Source: Gammaproteobacteria bacterium
Lineage (GTDB): Bacteria > Pseudomonadota > Gammaproteobacteria > Pseudomonadales > Pseudohongiellaceae
DNA length: 64,000 nucleotides
Direction of reading: 5' to 3'
Assembly: GCA_018401885.1 (NCBI GenBank)
Contig: JAGYKB010000005.1
Span: 62,001-126,000, forward strand
In this document: positions 57,251-63,425 of the stretch, piece by piece
How the letters are laid out: each line of letters begins with the position of its first letter
Numbering within the stretch: position 1 is the first letter of the stretch
Program-made: the position numbers and the translations under genes
The notes under the pieces: generated by a model
Seen by the model: the letters and a program-made list of their open reading frames with translations, nothing else
Databases searched by the model: none
What the model was told of the DNA's origin: nothing

Positions 57251-59290
57251 ATGCGATTGTTAAGTAGTAATTCGAAGACCCGCAGCATTCTGCGCGGTAT
57301 GACACTCGGAGCCATTGCGCTTGGTGTCTCTGCCACAGCGGCTGCCCAAAATCCCGAAGAGTGGTTCACGCTTGGCGGTGATTTCGCGCATACGCGCTAC
57401 TCGCCGGCCGATGAGATTACGGCAGAAAACTTTGCCGACCTCGAGGTTGCTTGGGAATGGGATGGCGCGAGTTTCAAAGCGATCAGCGGCCGCTCTACGC
57501 CCTCGTTGATTGACGGCAAGCTTTTCACCGTTGCGGGCAATAAGCGCTACGTTATCGCAATCGACCCTAAGACAGGGGACACGATCTGGTCATACCGCGA
57601 GCCCGACACACCTCGAGCTGAATACTCAATGCGCGCTGACTATGGCAAAGGCGTCGGCTACGCTCGCATCGACGGCCGCGGCGTTGTCTATATCGCCTCG
57701 CCTGGTTTCTTCCTGACAGCGCTCGACGCTGATACCGGCGTGCCAATAGAAGGTTTTGGTCAACCAGTGCCAATCGACGGCTTTCCTAAGACCGGCGTTG
57801 TCGACATGCTCGCCGACCTCGGGCATCCCTACGATCCTTATGAGGGTCTCCCACTCGAGACTGGCTACATCACCTCTTCATCGCCGCCTATTGTCGTCAA
57901 CGATACAGTTGTTGTCGGTAACTCCGCAGAGCAGGGCTACCACCAGTCGCGTGTAGAAAATGTCCCAGGCGATATTCTCGGTTACGATGCGCGAACTGGC
58001 GCGTTTAAATGGAAGTTTAATGTCATCCCTAAGCCAGGCGAATATGGCCATGAGACATGGGAGAACGATGCATGGGAATGGACTGGTGATGTTTCGTCTT
58101 GGGCGCCTTTGTCGGCAGACCCCGAGAACAACCTCGTTTACATTCCAACTAACAGCGCGACGATCGACTACTACGGTGGTTTCCGTCCGGGAGATAATCT
58201 TTACGGCGCGGCGCTTATCGCGCTAGATACTCGCACCGGCGAGCGCAAATGGCATTTCCAGATGGTGAAGCATGAAATCTGGAATTTCGACAATCCCACT
58301 GCGCCTGTACTGCTCGATCTCGATATGCCTGGCCGCGGCAAAGTCCCTGCGGTTGCTCAGATTACAAAGCAAGCGTGGGTCTATGCCTTTAACCGCATTA
58401 CCGGCGAACCACTGTGGCCTATCGTCGATAAGCCCGTGCCACCGTCCATCGTGCCGGGCGAAGTCCTTTCGCCAACTCAGCCGCATGTGACAAAGCCTGC
58501 GCCTTACGACATGCAAGGCATCACTGTGGATGATCTTGCGGATTTTACGCCTGAGATTCGTCAACAAGCGATAGATGCATTGGCAGACTACCAAATGGGC
58601 CCTCTGTTCAATCCGCCGATTCACGCGGGTAACGATACTGGCAAGTTTGCTGCGATGAATTGCCCAGGCGGCGCCGGCGGTGCGAATATCACAGCGCCCG
58701 CTGTTGCCGACCCTGAGACAGGCAAACTGTATGTGTCTTCGCACAAAGCTTGTTTTGCGCTTCGTCTAATACCGGGAGAGGAGGCTGATCTGCTCTACCC
58801 GAATACAACCGGCGTAACGCTGTCCGATTGGGCAAACGCTGGACCGGGTGCGACTTCGCGTCCTCCTCGTCATCCCGCCGGCATTCCACTGTGGAAGCCA
58901 CCCTATAGCCGCATTACTGCGATCGATATGAACACTGGCGACCATTCTTGGATGATTCCAACGGGCGAGACGCCTAACCGTATCAAGAACAATCCGGCGC
59001 TTGCGGGTATCGATATTGGTAACACAGGCACAGGCGCACTCGTGCCGATGGTCGTCACCAAAAACATGCTGGTCTACTCGGACGCGGCGAGCGACGGAAC
59101 ACCGATGCTTTACGCGATCAACAAAGAGACTGGTGAGATCATGGAGCAGATCGAAGCGCCTGGTCGTAGCAGCTACGGGATGAGCTCGTGGGTTCATGAT
59201 GGTCACCAGTACATCATCCTTCAGACAGGCTCTACGCTGACAGCGATGGCTTTGCCTGGAGCAAAGGCGCAGAGCAGCGGCGGTCACTAA
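57251..59290 (+). CDS. periplasmic PQQ-dependent dehydrogenase (quinoprotein)
   Basis: This 679-residue exported eight-bladed-propeller enzyme has a signal peptide ending near residue 33 (SATAAAQN). It then reads WFTLGGDFAHTRYSPADEIT, the usual quinoprotein start, and WD/W-motif blades. GEPLWPIVDKPVP and LSPTQPHVTKPAPYD match the glucose/quinate-type group, which oxidises sugars or alcohols and passes electrons to quinone or cytochrome. There is no N-terminal membrane domain or fused cytochrome. PQQ synthesis genes are not in the window. A GAGGGAG site and a strong terminator frame the gene. Confidence 0.92.
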   Translation: MRLLSSNSKTRSILRGMTLGAIALGVSATAAAQNPEEWFTLGGDFAHTRYSPADEITAENFADLEVAWEWDGASFKAISGRSTPSLIDGKLFTVAGNKRYVIAIDPKTGDTIWSYREPDTPRAEYSMRADYGKGVGYARIDGRGVVYIASPGFFLTALDADTGVPIEGFGQPVPIDGFPKTGVVDMLADLGHPYDPYEGLPLETGYITSSSPPIVVNDTVVVGNSAEQGYHQSRVENVPGDILGYDARTGAFKWKFNVIPKPGEYGHETWENDAWEWTGDVSSWAPLSADPENNLVYIPTNSATIDYYGGFRPGDNLYGAALIALDTRTGERKWHFQMVKHEIWNFDNPTAPVLLDLDMPGRGKVPAVAQITKQAWVYAFNRITGEPLWPIVDKPVPPSIVPGEVLSPTQPHVTKPAPYDMQGITVDDLADFTPEIRQQAIDALADYQMGPLFNPPIHAGNDTGKFAAMNCPGGAGGANITAPAVADPETGKLYVSSHKACFALRLIPGEEADLLYPNTTGVTLSDWANAGPGATSRPPRHPAGIPLWKPPYSRITAIDMNTGDHSWMIPTGETPNRIKNNPALAGIDIGNTGTGALVPMVVTKNMLVYSDAASDGTPMLYAINKETGEIMEQIEAPGRSSYGMSSWVHDGHQYIILQTGSTLTAMALPGAKAQSSGGH

Positions 59291-60357: not shown

Positions 60358-61950
60358 ATGAAGAAGTTTGTGTCGAGACGAGAGATCCTTGGGCTAATTG
60401 CTAAAGCAGGTGCAAGCGGCGCTGTTTTACAGGCGAGTAACGCTCTCGGTATTGTTCCCGACTCCTATGTCGATATCCCCAAAATCCCGCCAGCAGACCC
60501 CTCGAATCGCCCTAGCGTGGTTGTTTTGGGTGCAGGCGTAGCTGGATTGACTGCGGCACTCGAACTCAAAAAGGCGGGTTATAGCGTGGTGGTGTTAGAG
60601 GCTGCTGGACGCGCTGGTGGTCGCAATATGACCGTGCGTCATGGTGACCTCATCGACGAGGTGGGTAATCCTCAGATTTGCGATTTCGACGACGAGCCGC
60701 ACATGTATTTCAATGCTGGTCCTGCGCGGATCCCAAGCTCGCATCGTAATGTTCTTCATTACTGCAAAGAATTAGGCGTCGAGCTCGAATTTTTTATCAA
60801 TGAAAATAAAGAGACGTACATCCAAGACGACGCCATGCTCGATGGCAAACCCATAAAGAACCGTGAATTTACGACCAACGCGCGTGGCTTCATGGCAGAA
60901 ATAATGGCGAAAAATTTTACCAACGCCGAATTAGACCAGCCCTTCGATCAATGGGAGGTCGAGGCATTGATGCGGGCACTGCGTCGAATGGGCGATCTTG
61001 ATGAAGATATGCTCTACAAAGGCAGTACTCGCGGAGGATATTCGCATGGAGGTTTCCTTGAACACGGACATGCTCACGAGGCCGTCGCGCTAAGAGACCT
61101 CCTTAAGACCGATCTCTTCAGCATGGCGCTAAGCCAAAATGAGGGTGAAACAGGCCCGATGTTGTTTCAGCCCGTCGGCGGCATGGATCAGATAATCAAG
61201 GGCTATCTGCGCAAGCTCCCTGACGAAGTTTTTTACAACGTCATGGTGACCTCAGTGATGCTGCAGAACGATGGCATAGAGGTAGTCTACGAGCATAAAG
61301 GCATAAAGTATAAGATCGAGGCTGACTACTGTTTCAACAGCATTCCGACGCATTTGATGACCGGTATCGACAATAATTTCTCGGCAGATTACAAAGAAGC
61401 GATGGCGTATCCGCGCAGGGGTGAAGCCTACAAGTCAGCCTTCCAAGCGAAAGAGCGCTTTTGGGAGAAAGACGACATCTTTGGAGGAATCTCTTGGACC
61501 AATCAGCCAATCGAGCAGATCTGGTATCCGCCGCACGGCATGTACAAAGAAAAAGGGATCATTCTCTCTGCTTACAACTACGGCGGTGGGATGCATTTTA
61601 CTCAGCTTACACAGGAGGAGCGCATTGAGACGGCGATCCGCCAAGGTGAGAAAGTTCACCCCAACTACCGTAATCTAGTCGAGAAAGGTATCACCATCGC
61701 GTGGCATCGAATGAACCATATGCTCGGCTGCTCGGCGCGGTGGCAAAAGAGCCGTAGCGGATTTACGCAAGAAGAAGAACGCTTGTTCCAAACTCTGCGT
61801 CAGCCTGCGGGAAATAGGCACTACACAATCGGCGATCAGATAACCAAGCATACTGCGTGGCAAGAGAGCGCGATTCTCTCGGCCCATTGGGCAATTAATG
61901 ACATGCTAGCTCGAAAATCGGGCGGCGCAATGCCTGGTCAGCGCGTTTAA
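60358..61950 (+). CDS. exported flavin amine oxidase
   Basis: This 530-residue FAD enzyme is of the flavin monoamine oxidase family; it oxidises amines to imines. The N-terminus has a twin-arginine signal (SRREILGLIAKAG, residues 6-18), so folded export with FAD is likely. The dinucleotide loop GAGVAG is at 58-63, followed by EAAGRAGGRNM. The C-terminal FAD/substrate segment includes GDQITKHTAWQESAILSAHWA near 493. The physiological amine is unknown. Followed after 58 bases by a cytochrome gene and then a RidA gene, which fit as electron acceptor and imine hydrolase. Confidence 0.9.
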   Translation: MKKFVSRREILGLIAKAGASGAVLQASNALGIVPDSYVDIPKIPPADPSNRPSVVVLGAGVAGLTAALELKKAGYSVVVLEAAGRAGGRNMTVRHGDLIDEVGNPQICDFDDEPHMYFNAGPARIPSSHRNVLHYCKELGVELEFFINENKETYIQDDAMLDGKPIKNREFTTNARGFMAEIMAKNFTNAELDQPFDQWEVEALMRALRRMGDLDEDMLYKGSTRGGYSHGGFLEHGHAHEAVALRDLLKTDLFSMALSQNEGETGPMLFQPVGGMDQIIKGYLRKLPDEVFYNVMVTSVMLQNDGIEVVYEHKGIKYKIEADYCFNSIPTHLMTGIDNNFSADYKEAMAYPRRGEAYKSAFQAKERFWEKDDIFGGISWTNQPIEQIWYPPHGMYKEKGIILSAYNYGGGMHFTQLTQEERIETAIRQGEKVHPNYRNLVEKGITIAWHRMNHMLGCSARWQKSRSGFTQEEERLFQTLRQPAGNRHYTIGDQITKHTAWQESAILSAHWAINDMLARKSGGAMPGQRV

Positions 61951-62008
61951 TACGCGAAAAGCCTCTACTTAGAACCTATAACAGCATCCTATTCAAGGTC
62001 ATTTTTAC

Positions 62009-62659
62009 ATGCGAAACATAAGACTACTGACTGCCATTGCCTTGACGGCTTCGATCGCGGGACTCTCTAGCTTTAGCGCCTATGCGCAGCAGTATGCAGC
62101 GGTTGATACGACCAACCAGCCACTGAGCAATGAAGTCTGCGCGACTTGTCACGGCGGCGAGGGTCAGGGTAATCCAGTTGTCGGAGGCCCAAGTCTTGCC
62201 GGACTCGAGCCGTGGTATCTCCGTAAGCAACTCGAAAATTTCCGCGCGGGCATTCGCGGCTCGCAGAAAGATTATATTCCCGGTAATGAAATGCAGGCGT
62301 CAGTTGCTCGACTAAGCGACGCTGAAATTGACGATCTTGTAAATACCATTGCGGGATGGAAGGTGATCGAGAATGACCACACCATTGAGGGTGATCTTAG
62401 CAATGGGGAATCGCTGTATGCCAATTGTGCCGCATGCCACGGCGCCGATGGCGAAGGCAATGAGGCGCTGGGGGCCCCGGGCCTAGTCGGAAGAAACGAT
62501 TGGTATATGTTTAGGCAAATAAAATTATTCAAGTCGGGCTATCGTGGTGTTCACCCTGATGACACAGCAGGGAAACTCATGAGGCCTTCTACTCAGGCCC
62601 TTAAGAGCGACCAAGACGTTAACGACGTTCTTGCATACATTAACTCGTTGGATCGCTAG
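62009..62659 (+). CDS. di-haem c4-type cytochrome c
   Basis: This 216-residue periplasmic cytochrome has a signal peptide ending near residue 26 (SAYAQQ). Two haem sites are seen: CATCH at 44-48 and CAACH at 140-144. Likely methionine ligands are Met95 and one in GKLMRPST near 192. The two halves are related in sequence, as in cytochromes c4 and subunits of dehydrogenases. Placed between the amine oxidase and RidA genes, it probably takes electrons from the flavoenzyme and passes them to an oxidase. Confidence 0.95.
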   Translation: MRNIRLLTAIALTASIAGLSSFSAYAQQYAAVDTTNQPLSNEVCATCHGGEGQGNPVVGGPSLAGLEPWYLRKQLENFRAGIRGSQKDYIPGNEMQASVARLSDAEIDDLVNTIAGWKVIENDHTIEGDLSNGESLYANCAACHGADGEGNEALGAPGLVGRNDWYMFRQIKLFKSGYRGVHPDDTAGKLMRPSTQALKSDQDVNDVLAYINSLDR

Positions 62660-62732
62660 TGGCGCAAATTACTAAGTCAGTGAATAAATAAGGCACCAGG
62701 GCCGAGCCCTCGAGTCAGCCGGAGAAGAATTG

Positions 62733-63425
62733 ATGTCCGAACAAGAAGCAAACTCTCAAGATCAAGTAAGCGACTCGCCAGCACCAGAGGTGCAAGCTGA
62801 TAGAGGCGGCATGAGCGCGCTCAACAAAGCAGTAATTACAGCCGTGGTCCTGCTTGGAATTGTTCTTCTCATTCAGTTTACGGGCGGGGATGAAGCCGAC
62901 CTCCCTGTTTCTACGACAGGCTTATCTGCGGTCTCAGGCGCTGGCGAGAGCGTTGCAGTAGAAACGGCTTCGGACAATGTTGCGATTCTTGATAGAGATG
63001 CTGACAGCGACGTGGTTACCGTCGGCGGCATCGAGAGGCGTGGCGAAGGGCGATACTTTTTTACATCGATTAAAGTGCCTGCCGGTGCAGAATCACTCTA
63101 CCTGAGCGGCTCGGGCGCTTCTCCGCTGGAAGATGGTAGCTGGGGCGACATGGAGCAGCAGGTTGTCGACACGTTCGAAAGCTTCAAACAGACACTCGAA
63201 CAGCAAGGATGGTCAATGGGCGATATTGTTCAGGTTCGCGCCTTTGCTGTGTCCGATGAATTTGGATATCTCGACTTCGAAGGCTTTAATCGCGGCTACC
63301 GCAAGTTCTTTGGCACCGAAGAAAATCCGCTAAAGCCTGTTCGCACCTTTGTCGAGATTCAAGGGCTCGTCGTTCCAGGCTGGTTGGTTGAAATCGAGAT
63401 TCGAGCGGCACGCATGCCAAAATAG
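62733..63425 (+). CDS. membrane-anchored RidA-family protein
   Basis: The 230-residue protein has a short charged N-terminus, one membrane span at about 33-50 (AVITAVVLLGIVLLIQF), a linker, and a RidA (YjgF/UK114) domain at about 100-230. RidA hydrolyses reactive imines/enamines. Active-site residues appear kept: arginine in KPVRTFVEIQGL and glutamate in WLVEIEIRA. Basic residues before and acidic residues after the span put the RidA domain in the periplasm, unlike normal cytosolic RidA. GGAGAAG precedes the ATG. It follows the cytochrome by 73 bases. Confidence 0.85.
   Translation: MSEQEANSQDQVSDSPAPEVQADRGGMSALNKAVITAVVLLGIVLLIQFTGGDEADLPVSTTGLSAVSGAGESVAVETASDNVAILDRDADSDVVTVGGIERRGEGRYFFTSIKVPAGAESLYLSGSGASPLEDGSWGDMEQQVVDTFESFKQTLEQQGWSMGDIVQVRAFAVSDEFGYLDFEGFNRGYRKFFGTEENPLKPVRTFVEIQGLVVPGWLVEIEIRAARMPK

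Follow-up and report, generated by a model that had tools for sequence, protein, structure and literature searches.

A variant of the lao-cccA-ridA gene cluster with a di-haem cytochrome c and a membrane-anchored Rid protein in a gammaproteobacterium

Introduction

The lao-cccA-ridA cluster of Gluconacetobacter diazotrophicus (GDI2456-2454 in strain PAL5) encodes an L-amino acid oxidase (LAAO), a cytochrome c, and a RidA protein, and was described by Rodrigues et al. in 2016 for its role in forming indole-3-acetate (IAA) from tryptophan (PMC5053998). Two Tn5 lao mutants lost IAA; all three transcripts were lower in the one that was tested, Gdiaa01, and the mutant phenotype also included weaker promotion of rice root growth (PMC5053998). 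The authors hypothesize that the cytochrome c and RidA act together with the LAAO, which they regard as probably periplasmic, and they cite Lee 2004 for ccm mutants that produce 5% of wild-type IAA (PMC5053998). In the current study, we analyze a related trio of genes that encode a flavin amine oxidoreductase (FAO), a di-haem cytochrome c, and a Rid domain on a membrane anchor. The trio lies in a 64,000-nucleotide stretch of DNA (the window) from a gammaproteobacterium of the Pseudohongiellaceae (assembly GCA_018401885.1, contig JAGYKB010000005.1, positions 62,001 to 126,000).

Several other systems resemble the trio in part. The nicotine dehydrogenases NicA2/Pnao-CycN and related FAO-cytochrome c pairs combine an FAO exported by twin-arginine translocation (Tat) with an adjoining gene for a secreted cytochrome c (PMC12224317, PMC9396064), and the pairing of a Tat signal with an adjacent cytochrome gene predicts FAO dehydrogenases that use the cytochrome (PMC12224317). 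These systems differ from the window in that its FAO is of the LAAO type; moreover, no word starting with "Rid" occurs in PMC12224317. The nicotine cluster of Agrobacterium tumefaciens S33 contains genes for a flavin amine oxidase, a cytochrome c, and a Rid family protein (PMC7688666). However, its amine oxidase, Hno, is cytoplasmic and uses O2, its Rid protein is called Rid6, and its periplasmic step is carried out by a molybdenum enzyme with pseudoazurin (PMC7688666). Chlamydomonas LAO1 and LAO2/RIDA, described in 2023, provide an extracytoplasmic LAAO in the periplasm with a Rid gene in the cluster, but LAO1 is described as making H2O2 and no cytochrome partner appears in the accessible text (PMC10805672). 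The same paper cites the bacterial lao-cccA-ridA cluster.

Results

The trio consists of plus-strand open reading frames (ORFs) separated by 58 and 73 bases (Table 1). It matches lao-cccA-ridA, which we located in the G. diazotrophicus PA1 5 genome by means of a primer printed in PMC5053998, in gene families, order, and orientation. The window FAO aligns with the C-terminal part of the G. diazotrophicus LAAO, the part compared here, at 34% identity over 288 residues, and the two Rid proteins align at 40% over 125 residues. The G. diazotrophicus LAAO carries a Tat signal as stated in PMC5053998, and its cytochrome and RidA both start with Sec-type signals. Despite these similarities, the G. diazotrophicus cytochrome is mono-haem, 139 amino acids in length, and gives no BLAST match to that of the window at E 1e-3. 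Its Rid protein has a signal peptide, whereas the window Rid has an anchor and a long linker, and the two FAOs fall in opposite halves of the FAO tree. Because of the di-haem cytochrome and the membrane-anchored Rid, we assign the trio to a variant of lao-cccA-ridA and not to the same cluster. The evidence for co-transcription and for a requirement in IAA formation comes from G. diazotrophicus (PMC5053998); in the window, only the short gaps between genes bear on it.

An earlier sequence-only reading of the window had taken the trio for a system not known as described. This view is ruled out by lao-cccA-ridA, which was published with the same hypothesis of joint action (PMC5053998). The gene set is widespread and has been known in print since 2016. 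The remainder of that reading fares better. The ORFs and Pfam domains agree with its coordinates and its three consecutive plus-strand genes, while the motif SRREILGL, two CxxCH motifs, and one hydrophobic segment correspond to its Tat-type FAO, di-haem cytochrome c, and RidA domain on a membrane anchor. Its proposal that the trio is one unit with all parts exported is also what signals, hydropathy, and linkage predict.

The FAO begins with MKKFVSRREILGLIAKAG, a Tat-type signal that includes the twin-arginine motif SRREILGL. Its top match in the PDB is LAAO entry 2jae (246.9 bits, E 4e-72), followed by an ancestral LAAO construct (95.6 bits). Entry 2jae is the LAAO of Rhodococcus opacus. The R. 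opacus enzyme also serves as a comparison in PMC5053998. In alignments with 2jae and the ancestral construct, R124, Y406, and W501 of the window FAO pair with R, Y, and W. Across 73 aligned FAO homologues, which include the partial G. diazotrophicus LAAO, R124 is present in all 72 sequences that have a letter at that position, Y406 in 70 of 73, and W501 in 73 of 73. In LAAO structures, residues of this type take part in amino acid binding. A generic amine or nicotine-type FAO, which was considered as a candidate, is ruled out by the PDB matches that group the enzyme with LAAOs, and no nicotine oxidoreductase is named among the best 60 of the 86 PDB matches. By these matches and alignments, the window FAO is of the LAAO type, and for that reason its substrates are likely L-amino acids rather than simple amines. 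The sequence-only reading had proposed amine oxidation to imines; the flavin amine oxidase stands, but L-amino acids replace generic amines as the probable substrates. Homologues of the FAO (E 1e-30) occur in 35 of 72,556 plasmid records, all below 60% identity and including Deinococcus and Metabacillus; no relative was found in the viral contigs searched.

The cytochrome contains a Sec-type signal and two haem motifs, CATCH and CAACH. It resembles cytochrome c4 in being di-haem and in having the c4 structure 1etp as its best PDB match (E 5e-17), but the aligned region is confined to residues 128-213 in the C-terminal half. PDB entries 8smr and 8snh occur among the matches as cytochrome c4 and also as subunits of cbb3 oxidase. 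The window genome (G000) encodes TatC, CcmE, and CcoN, the last above its cut-off. By analogy, the window cytochrome may deliver electrons to cbb3 oxidase. The window FAO has a Tat signal and an adjacent gene for a secreted cytochrome, the combination from which PMC12224317 predicts cytochrome use.

Linkage of the three genes was surveyed in two sets of genomes, each of which includes that of the window: a set of 58 that otherwise comprises 57 relatives, and a set of 398 sampled from the phylum. In the window's genus, 29 of 37 genomes (own included) yield FAO matches at E <1e-190; in the phylum set, 27 of 398 genomes match at E 1e-40 or better. Together these surveys provided 72 FAO loci: all 42 full-length places of the first, weaker partial matches being excluded, and 30 further places of the second. 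A twin-arginine pattern, loosely defined for this count, is present in 71 of the 72 FAO loci, and the remaining one has a KR variant. A secreted cytochrome c gene lies just downstream of the FAO in 56 of 72 loci, of which 38 are di-haem and 18 mono-haem by a hydropathy rule; one of the latter, L046, is cut by a contig end. The count rises to 58 when L111 and the first FAO of L117 are added (mono-haem ORF, start-dependent rule only). A same-strand Rid gene is found within 4 kb downstream or 1.5 kb upstream of the FAO in 48 of 72 loci, and six loci are too close to a contig end to tell. Such proximity should be rare by chance because the 58 genomes contain 1 to 9 Rid matches each. The three parts form a common set that is not obligatory.

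In an FAO tree of 73 rows, rooted at the midpoint solely for drawing, 39 loci share the half that contains the window. Every one of them has a cytochrome, which is di-haem in 38 loci and interrupted by the end of the contig in the remaining one. In the opposite half, where the G. diazotrophicus LAAO falls, the hydropathy rule detects either a mono-haem cytochrome or no cytochrome; at L111 and L121, a three-CxxCH ORF is also nearby. Cytochrome type tracks FAO clade across the tree, an association that seems to be new. A membrane-anchored Rid directly follows the cytochrome in the window, L036, L037, and L038, which form one branch with support of 100/100. The anchor described by the sequence-only reading is present in the window, but it is confined to this four-locus clade, and the linked Rid proteins of most other loci have a signal-peptide-like N-terminus instead. 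The combination of a di-haem partner and a tethered Rid seems to represent a new variant. On the 12.4-kb G007 contig that contains L038, the trio is kept together and the window's flanking genes gave no match, an absence that on so short a contig is local only. Since all four loci of the clade retain the trio, on this contig without those flanking genes, the association of the three genes goes beyond chance, and the comparison supports the view that it is a conserved functional unit.

A different arrangement prevails at 21 other loci of the same genus. The Rid gene is located 1.3-2.5 kb downstream and its product has a signal-like N-terminus except at L054, which is truncated. A homologue of sodium:dicarboxylate symporters (SDF) sits between in 21 of 21 loci, and Pfam SDF was detected in the four of four that were tested. 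At the two loci tested for it, an amidase gene (PF01425) follows the Rid gene (L039, 3380-5224; L042, 12536-14473). G028 carries both cluster types, L037 and L044. In the window genome, the sole SDF gene is directly followed by a second Rid, which bears a Sec-type signal and is 74% identical to the window Rid domain over 127 amino acids; the pair spans 6503-8460 of L143 (G000:C12:168000-182000). No FAO lies beside this SDF-Rid pair, and no cytochrome gene was found in the 14-kb L143 stretch, where the sole CxxCH is followed by a stop one residue on. The cluster looks to be split in the window genome, the SDF-Rid pair being located away from the oxidase and cytochrome.

The window Rid protein is organized as a 32-residue tail, a single hydrophobic segment, a linker of about 50 residues, and the RidA domain. 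Its closest relatives at L036, L037, and L038 reach hydropathy values of 2.7-3.0 at a similar position. The mechanically called ORF opens at TTG 62730, three bases before the ATG used in Table 1. The 10 residues that precede the segment include R and K with one D, and the 10 that follow include D, E, and D with no basic residue. Because basic residues lie on the N-terminal side and acidic residues on the C-terminal side, an N-in/C-out topology that places the domain in the periplasm is the better guess. The top PDB matches of the Rid domain are PSPTO3006 (E 3e-22) and PFL1385 (E 6e-21), its nearest solved relatives. Both proteins are classed as Rid3 (PSPTO_3006 and PFL_1385) and hydrolyze LAAO-made imines in vitro (PMC5619798). 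The window Rid differs from this subfamily in its membrane anchor and linker, and the word periplasm is absent from PMC5619798. We aligned 50 Rid sequences: 48 linked to FAO loci, the G. diazotrophicus RidA, and the second Rid of the window genome. The arginine of the PxR motif (PVRTFVEI) is present in 49 of them, the exception being truncated L054. Rid genes are reported to cluster in genomes with those for FAD-dependent amine oxidases (PMC4433059). Judged from these features, the window Rid is likely the imine-hydrolysis partner of the FAO.

Most Rid proteins linked to these FAOs appear to be exported. A strongly hydrophobic N-terminal part, defined by a 12-residue mean hydropathy of at least 1.6, is found in 44 of 48 linked Rid proteins. 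As a control, 0 of the 30 top-scoring RidA proteins elsewhere in the relatives pass this cut-off (maximum, 1.5). Truncated L054 falls below it, as does L107, which is still signal-like at 1.58. Export of most linked Rid proteins seems not to have been described before.

Table 1 Features of the trio and signal-less Rid genes (coordinates are those of the window unless a locus is named)
Feature	Coordinates	Strand	Evidence
LAAO-type FAO, Tat signal, 530 amino acids	60358..61950	+	PF01593 Amino_oxidase, E 6e-30
Secreted di-haem cytochrome c, cytochrome-c4-like, 216 amino acids	62009..62659	+	PF00034 Cytochrom_C, E 2e-25
Rid (Rid3-like) domain after N-terminal membrane anchor and linker, 230 amino acids from ATG	62733..63425	+	PF01042 Ribonuc_L-PSP, E 5e-14
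Predicted membrane segment of Rid protein, about residues 33-50	62829..62882	+	Kyte-Doolittle mean 3.2 over 15 residues
Signal-less Rid gene, L129	7523-7945		
Signal-less Rid gene, L132	7569-7991		

Just upstream of the trio, the window encodes a secreted beta-propeller protein that resembles pyrroloquinoline quinone (PQQ) dehydrogenases (57251-59290; PF01011, E 1e-152). Its matches to PQQ-dehydrogenase subfamily models all fall short of the curated cut-offs of the listed NCBIfam models. A minus-strand trio at 54424-56927 matches PF05618 (putative ATP-dependent zinc protease family), PF08443 (RimK-like ligase), and PF24827, a succinylglutamate desuccinylase/aspartoacylase domain protein in Pfam. 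Genes for PQQ-dehydrogenase-like, VTT, and DsbA-like proteins adjoin the trio in G026 and G028. They were rejected as members of the unit, with no match at L038, L039, L044, L105, and L106, which hold homologues of the trio. Scans for promoters and terminators returned results at chance level.

Discussion

The best reading of these findings, and one that we regard as probable, is that the trio specifies a periplasmic L-amino acid dehydrogenase module that delivers electrons to cytochrome c and on to cbb3 oxidase, while an exported Rid hydrolyzes the imino acid. According to this model, Tat would export the folded FAO to the periplasm, where the enzyme would oxidize L-amino acids to 2-imino acids. 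Its electrons would pass to the co-encoded di-haem cytochrome c instead of oxygen, and from the cytochrome they would enter the respiratory chain, with the cbb3 oxidase of the genome as the simplest destination. The Rid domain, anchored through its N-terminus at the periplasmic side of the inner membrane, would accelerate conversion of the imino acid to keto acid and ammonium. We infer the substrate, electron acceptor, Rid activity, topology, and any physical complex from the comparisons described above.

A number of observations weigh against this model. The rule that predicts dehydrogenases derives from NicA2-related FAOs and not from the LAAO type (PMC12224317). The FAO set of that study was drawn from the top 5000 NicA2 matches, and the term "L-amino acid oxidase" does not appear in its main text. 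The literature searched, which included few subscription journals, yielded no enzyme assay for any step in the window's clade and no study in which an LAAO-type enzyme was assayed for dehydrogenase activity with a cytochrome. The topology of the Rid protein was judged from hydropathy and local charge only. The flanking charges favor the N-in/C-out orientation, in line with the periplasmic location given by the sequence-only reading, but the 32-residue tail is acidic overall (6 acidic and 2 basic residues), which weakens the call. In addition, related loci are dependent observations. The co-occurrence across genomes that the same reading proposed to check is seen in the Rid and cytochrome counts given above, but 18 of 72 FAO loci have no nearby Rid although the sequence continues. 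Six of these 18, the same-genus loci L065-L070, encode FAO and di-haem cytochrome pairs without Rid and form a well-supported branch of their own. Five of their genomes (G008, G013, G020, G028, and G034) have a full cluster elsewhere; none was found in G017. Eight loci have a Rid gene without a cytochrome by the hydropathy rule, or seven if the L117 cytochrome is accepted. Finally, the Rid proteins of L129 and L132 are short and signal-less, and stand beside Tat FAOs with no cytochrome gene.

LAAOs are generally known as oxidases, and the window FAO could be an ordinary O2-using periplasmic enzyme that makes peroxide, the cytochrome serving to scavenge the peroxide or to support general respiration. 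We consider this unlikely. Tat FAOs without a neighboring cytochrome gene are indeed mostly fast with O2 (PMC12224317), and some homologues of the window FAO are accompanied by Rid and no cytochrome. However, a cytochrome adjoins the FAO here and throughout this half of the tree (39 of 39 loci, one partly seen at a contig end), and an adjacent cytochrome is the feature that predicts dehydrogenases (PMC12224317).

The chances are slimmer still that the Rid protein, instead of hydrolyzing imines, serves the oxidase as a structural or regulatory subunit. A Chlamydomonas complex in which the LAAO subunit is catalytic and the RidA subunit is not, as cited in PMC5053998, offers a precedent, and the tight FAO-Rid linkage would fit a subunit role as well. 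Yet the near-universal catalytic-type arginine (absent only from a truncated sequence in the alignment of 50) and the in vitro imine deaminase activity of Rid3 relatives (PMC5619798) argue for hydrolysis, and the two roles are compatible with each other. That the module mainly serves biosynthesis or signaling, generating indole-3-pyruvate and IAA from tryptophan rather than catabolizing amino acids, is suggested by the IAA loss and weaker rice root growth promotion of the G. diazotrophicus mutants (PMC5053998), but it is highly improbable, given that 34% identity over 288 residues to the G. diazotrophicus LAAO is insufficient to fix the substrate and that the SDF symporter gene in 21 same-genus clusters and the amidase gene (two of two tested) suit catabolism better.

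Returning to the periplasmic dehydrogenase module, searches within the literature scope given above found no paper on a membrane-anchored Rid, and a search on flavin L-amino acid dehydrogenase, cytochrome c, and periplasm returned nothing on the trio among the matches listed. A search for exported Rid proteins turned up just two papers on cable bacteria, probably through chance word matches, and one for RidA family proteins together with an amine oxidase and a cytochrome c turned up none. It is tempting to speculate that the LAAO-type enzymes of Pseudomonadota are little-studied respiratory periplasmic L-amino acid dehydrogenases that have switched between mono-haem and di-haem c4-like partners and act with a dedicated exported Rid lineage. 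We advance this broader proposal tentatively and hold it to be possible rather than probable. In the window's clade, Rid would be tethered to the inner membrane, perhaps in an imine-processing complex at the membrane side.

If the model is correct, periplasmic respiration of amino acids proceeds in some bacteria without generating peroxide, and the reactive imine is handled in the same compartment. This would provide a wider setting for cytochrome-using amine oxidases and for Rid proteins, and a dedicated exported Rid lineage, if true, would constitute a genuine extracytoplasmic branch of the Rid superfamily. The FAO clades with mono-haem, di-haem, and no cytochrome offer ready pairs for studying the switch between oxygen and cytochrome in flavoenzymes.

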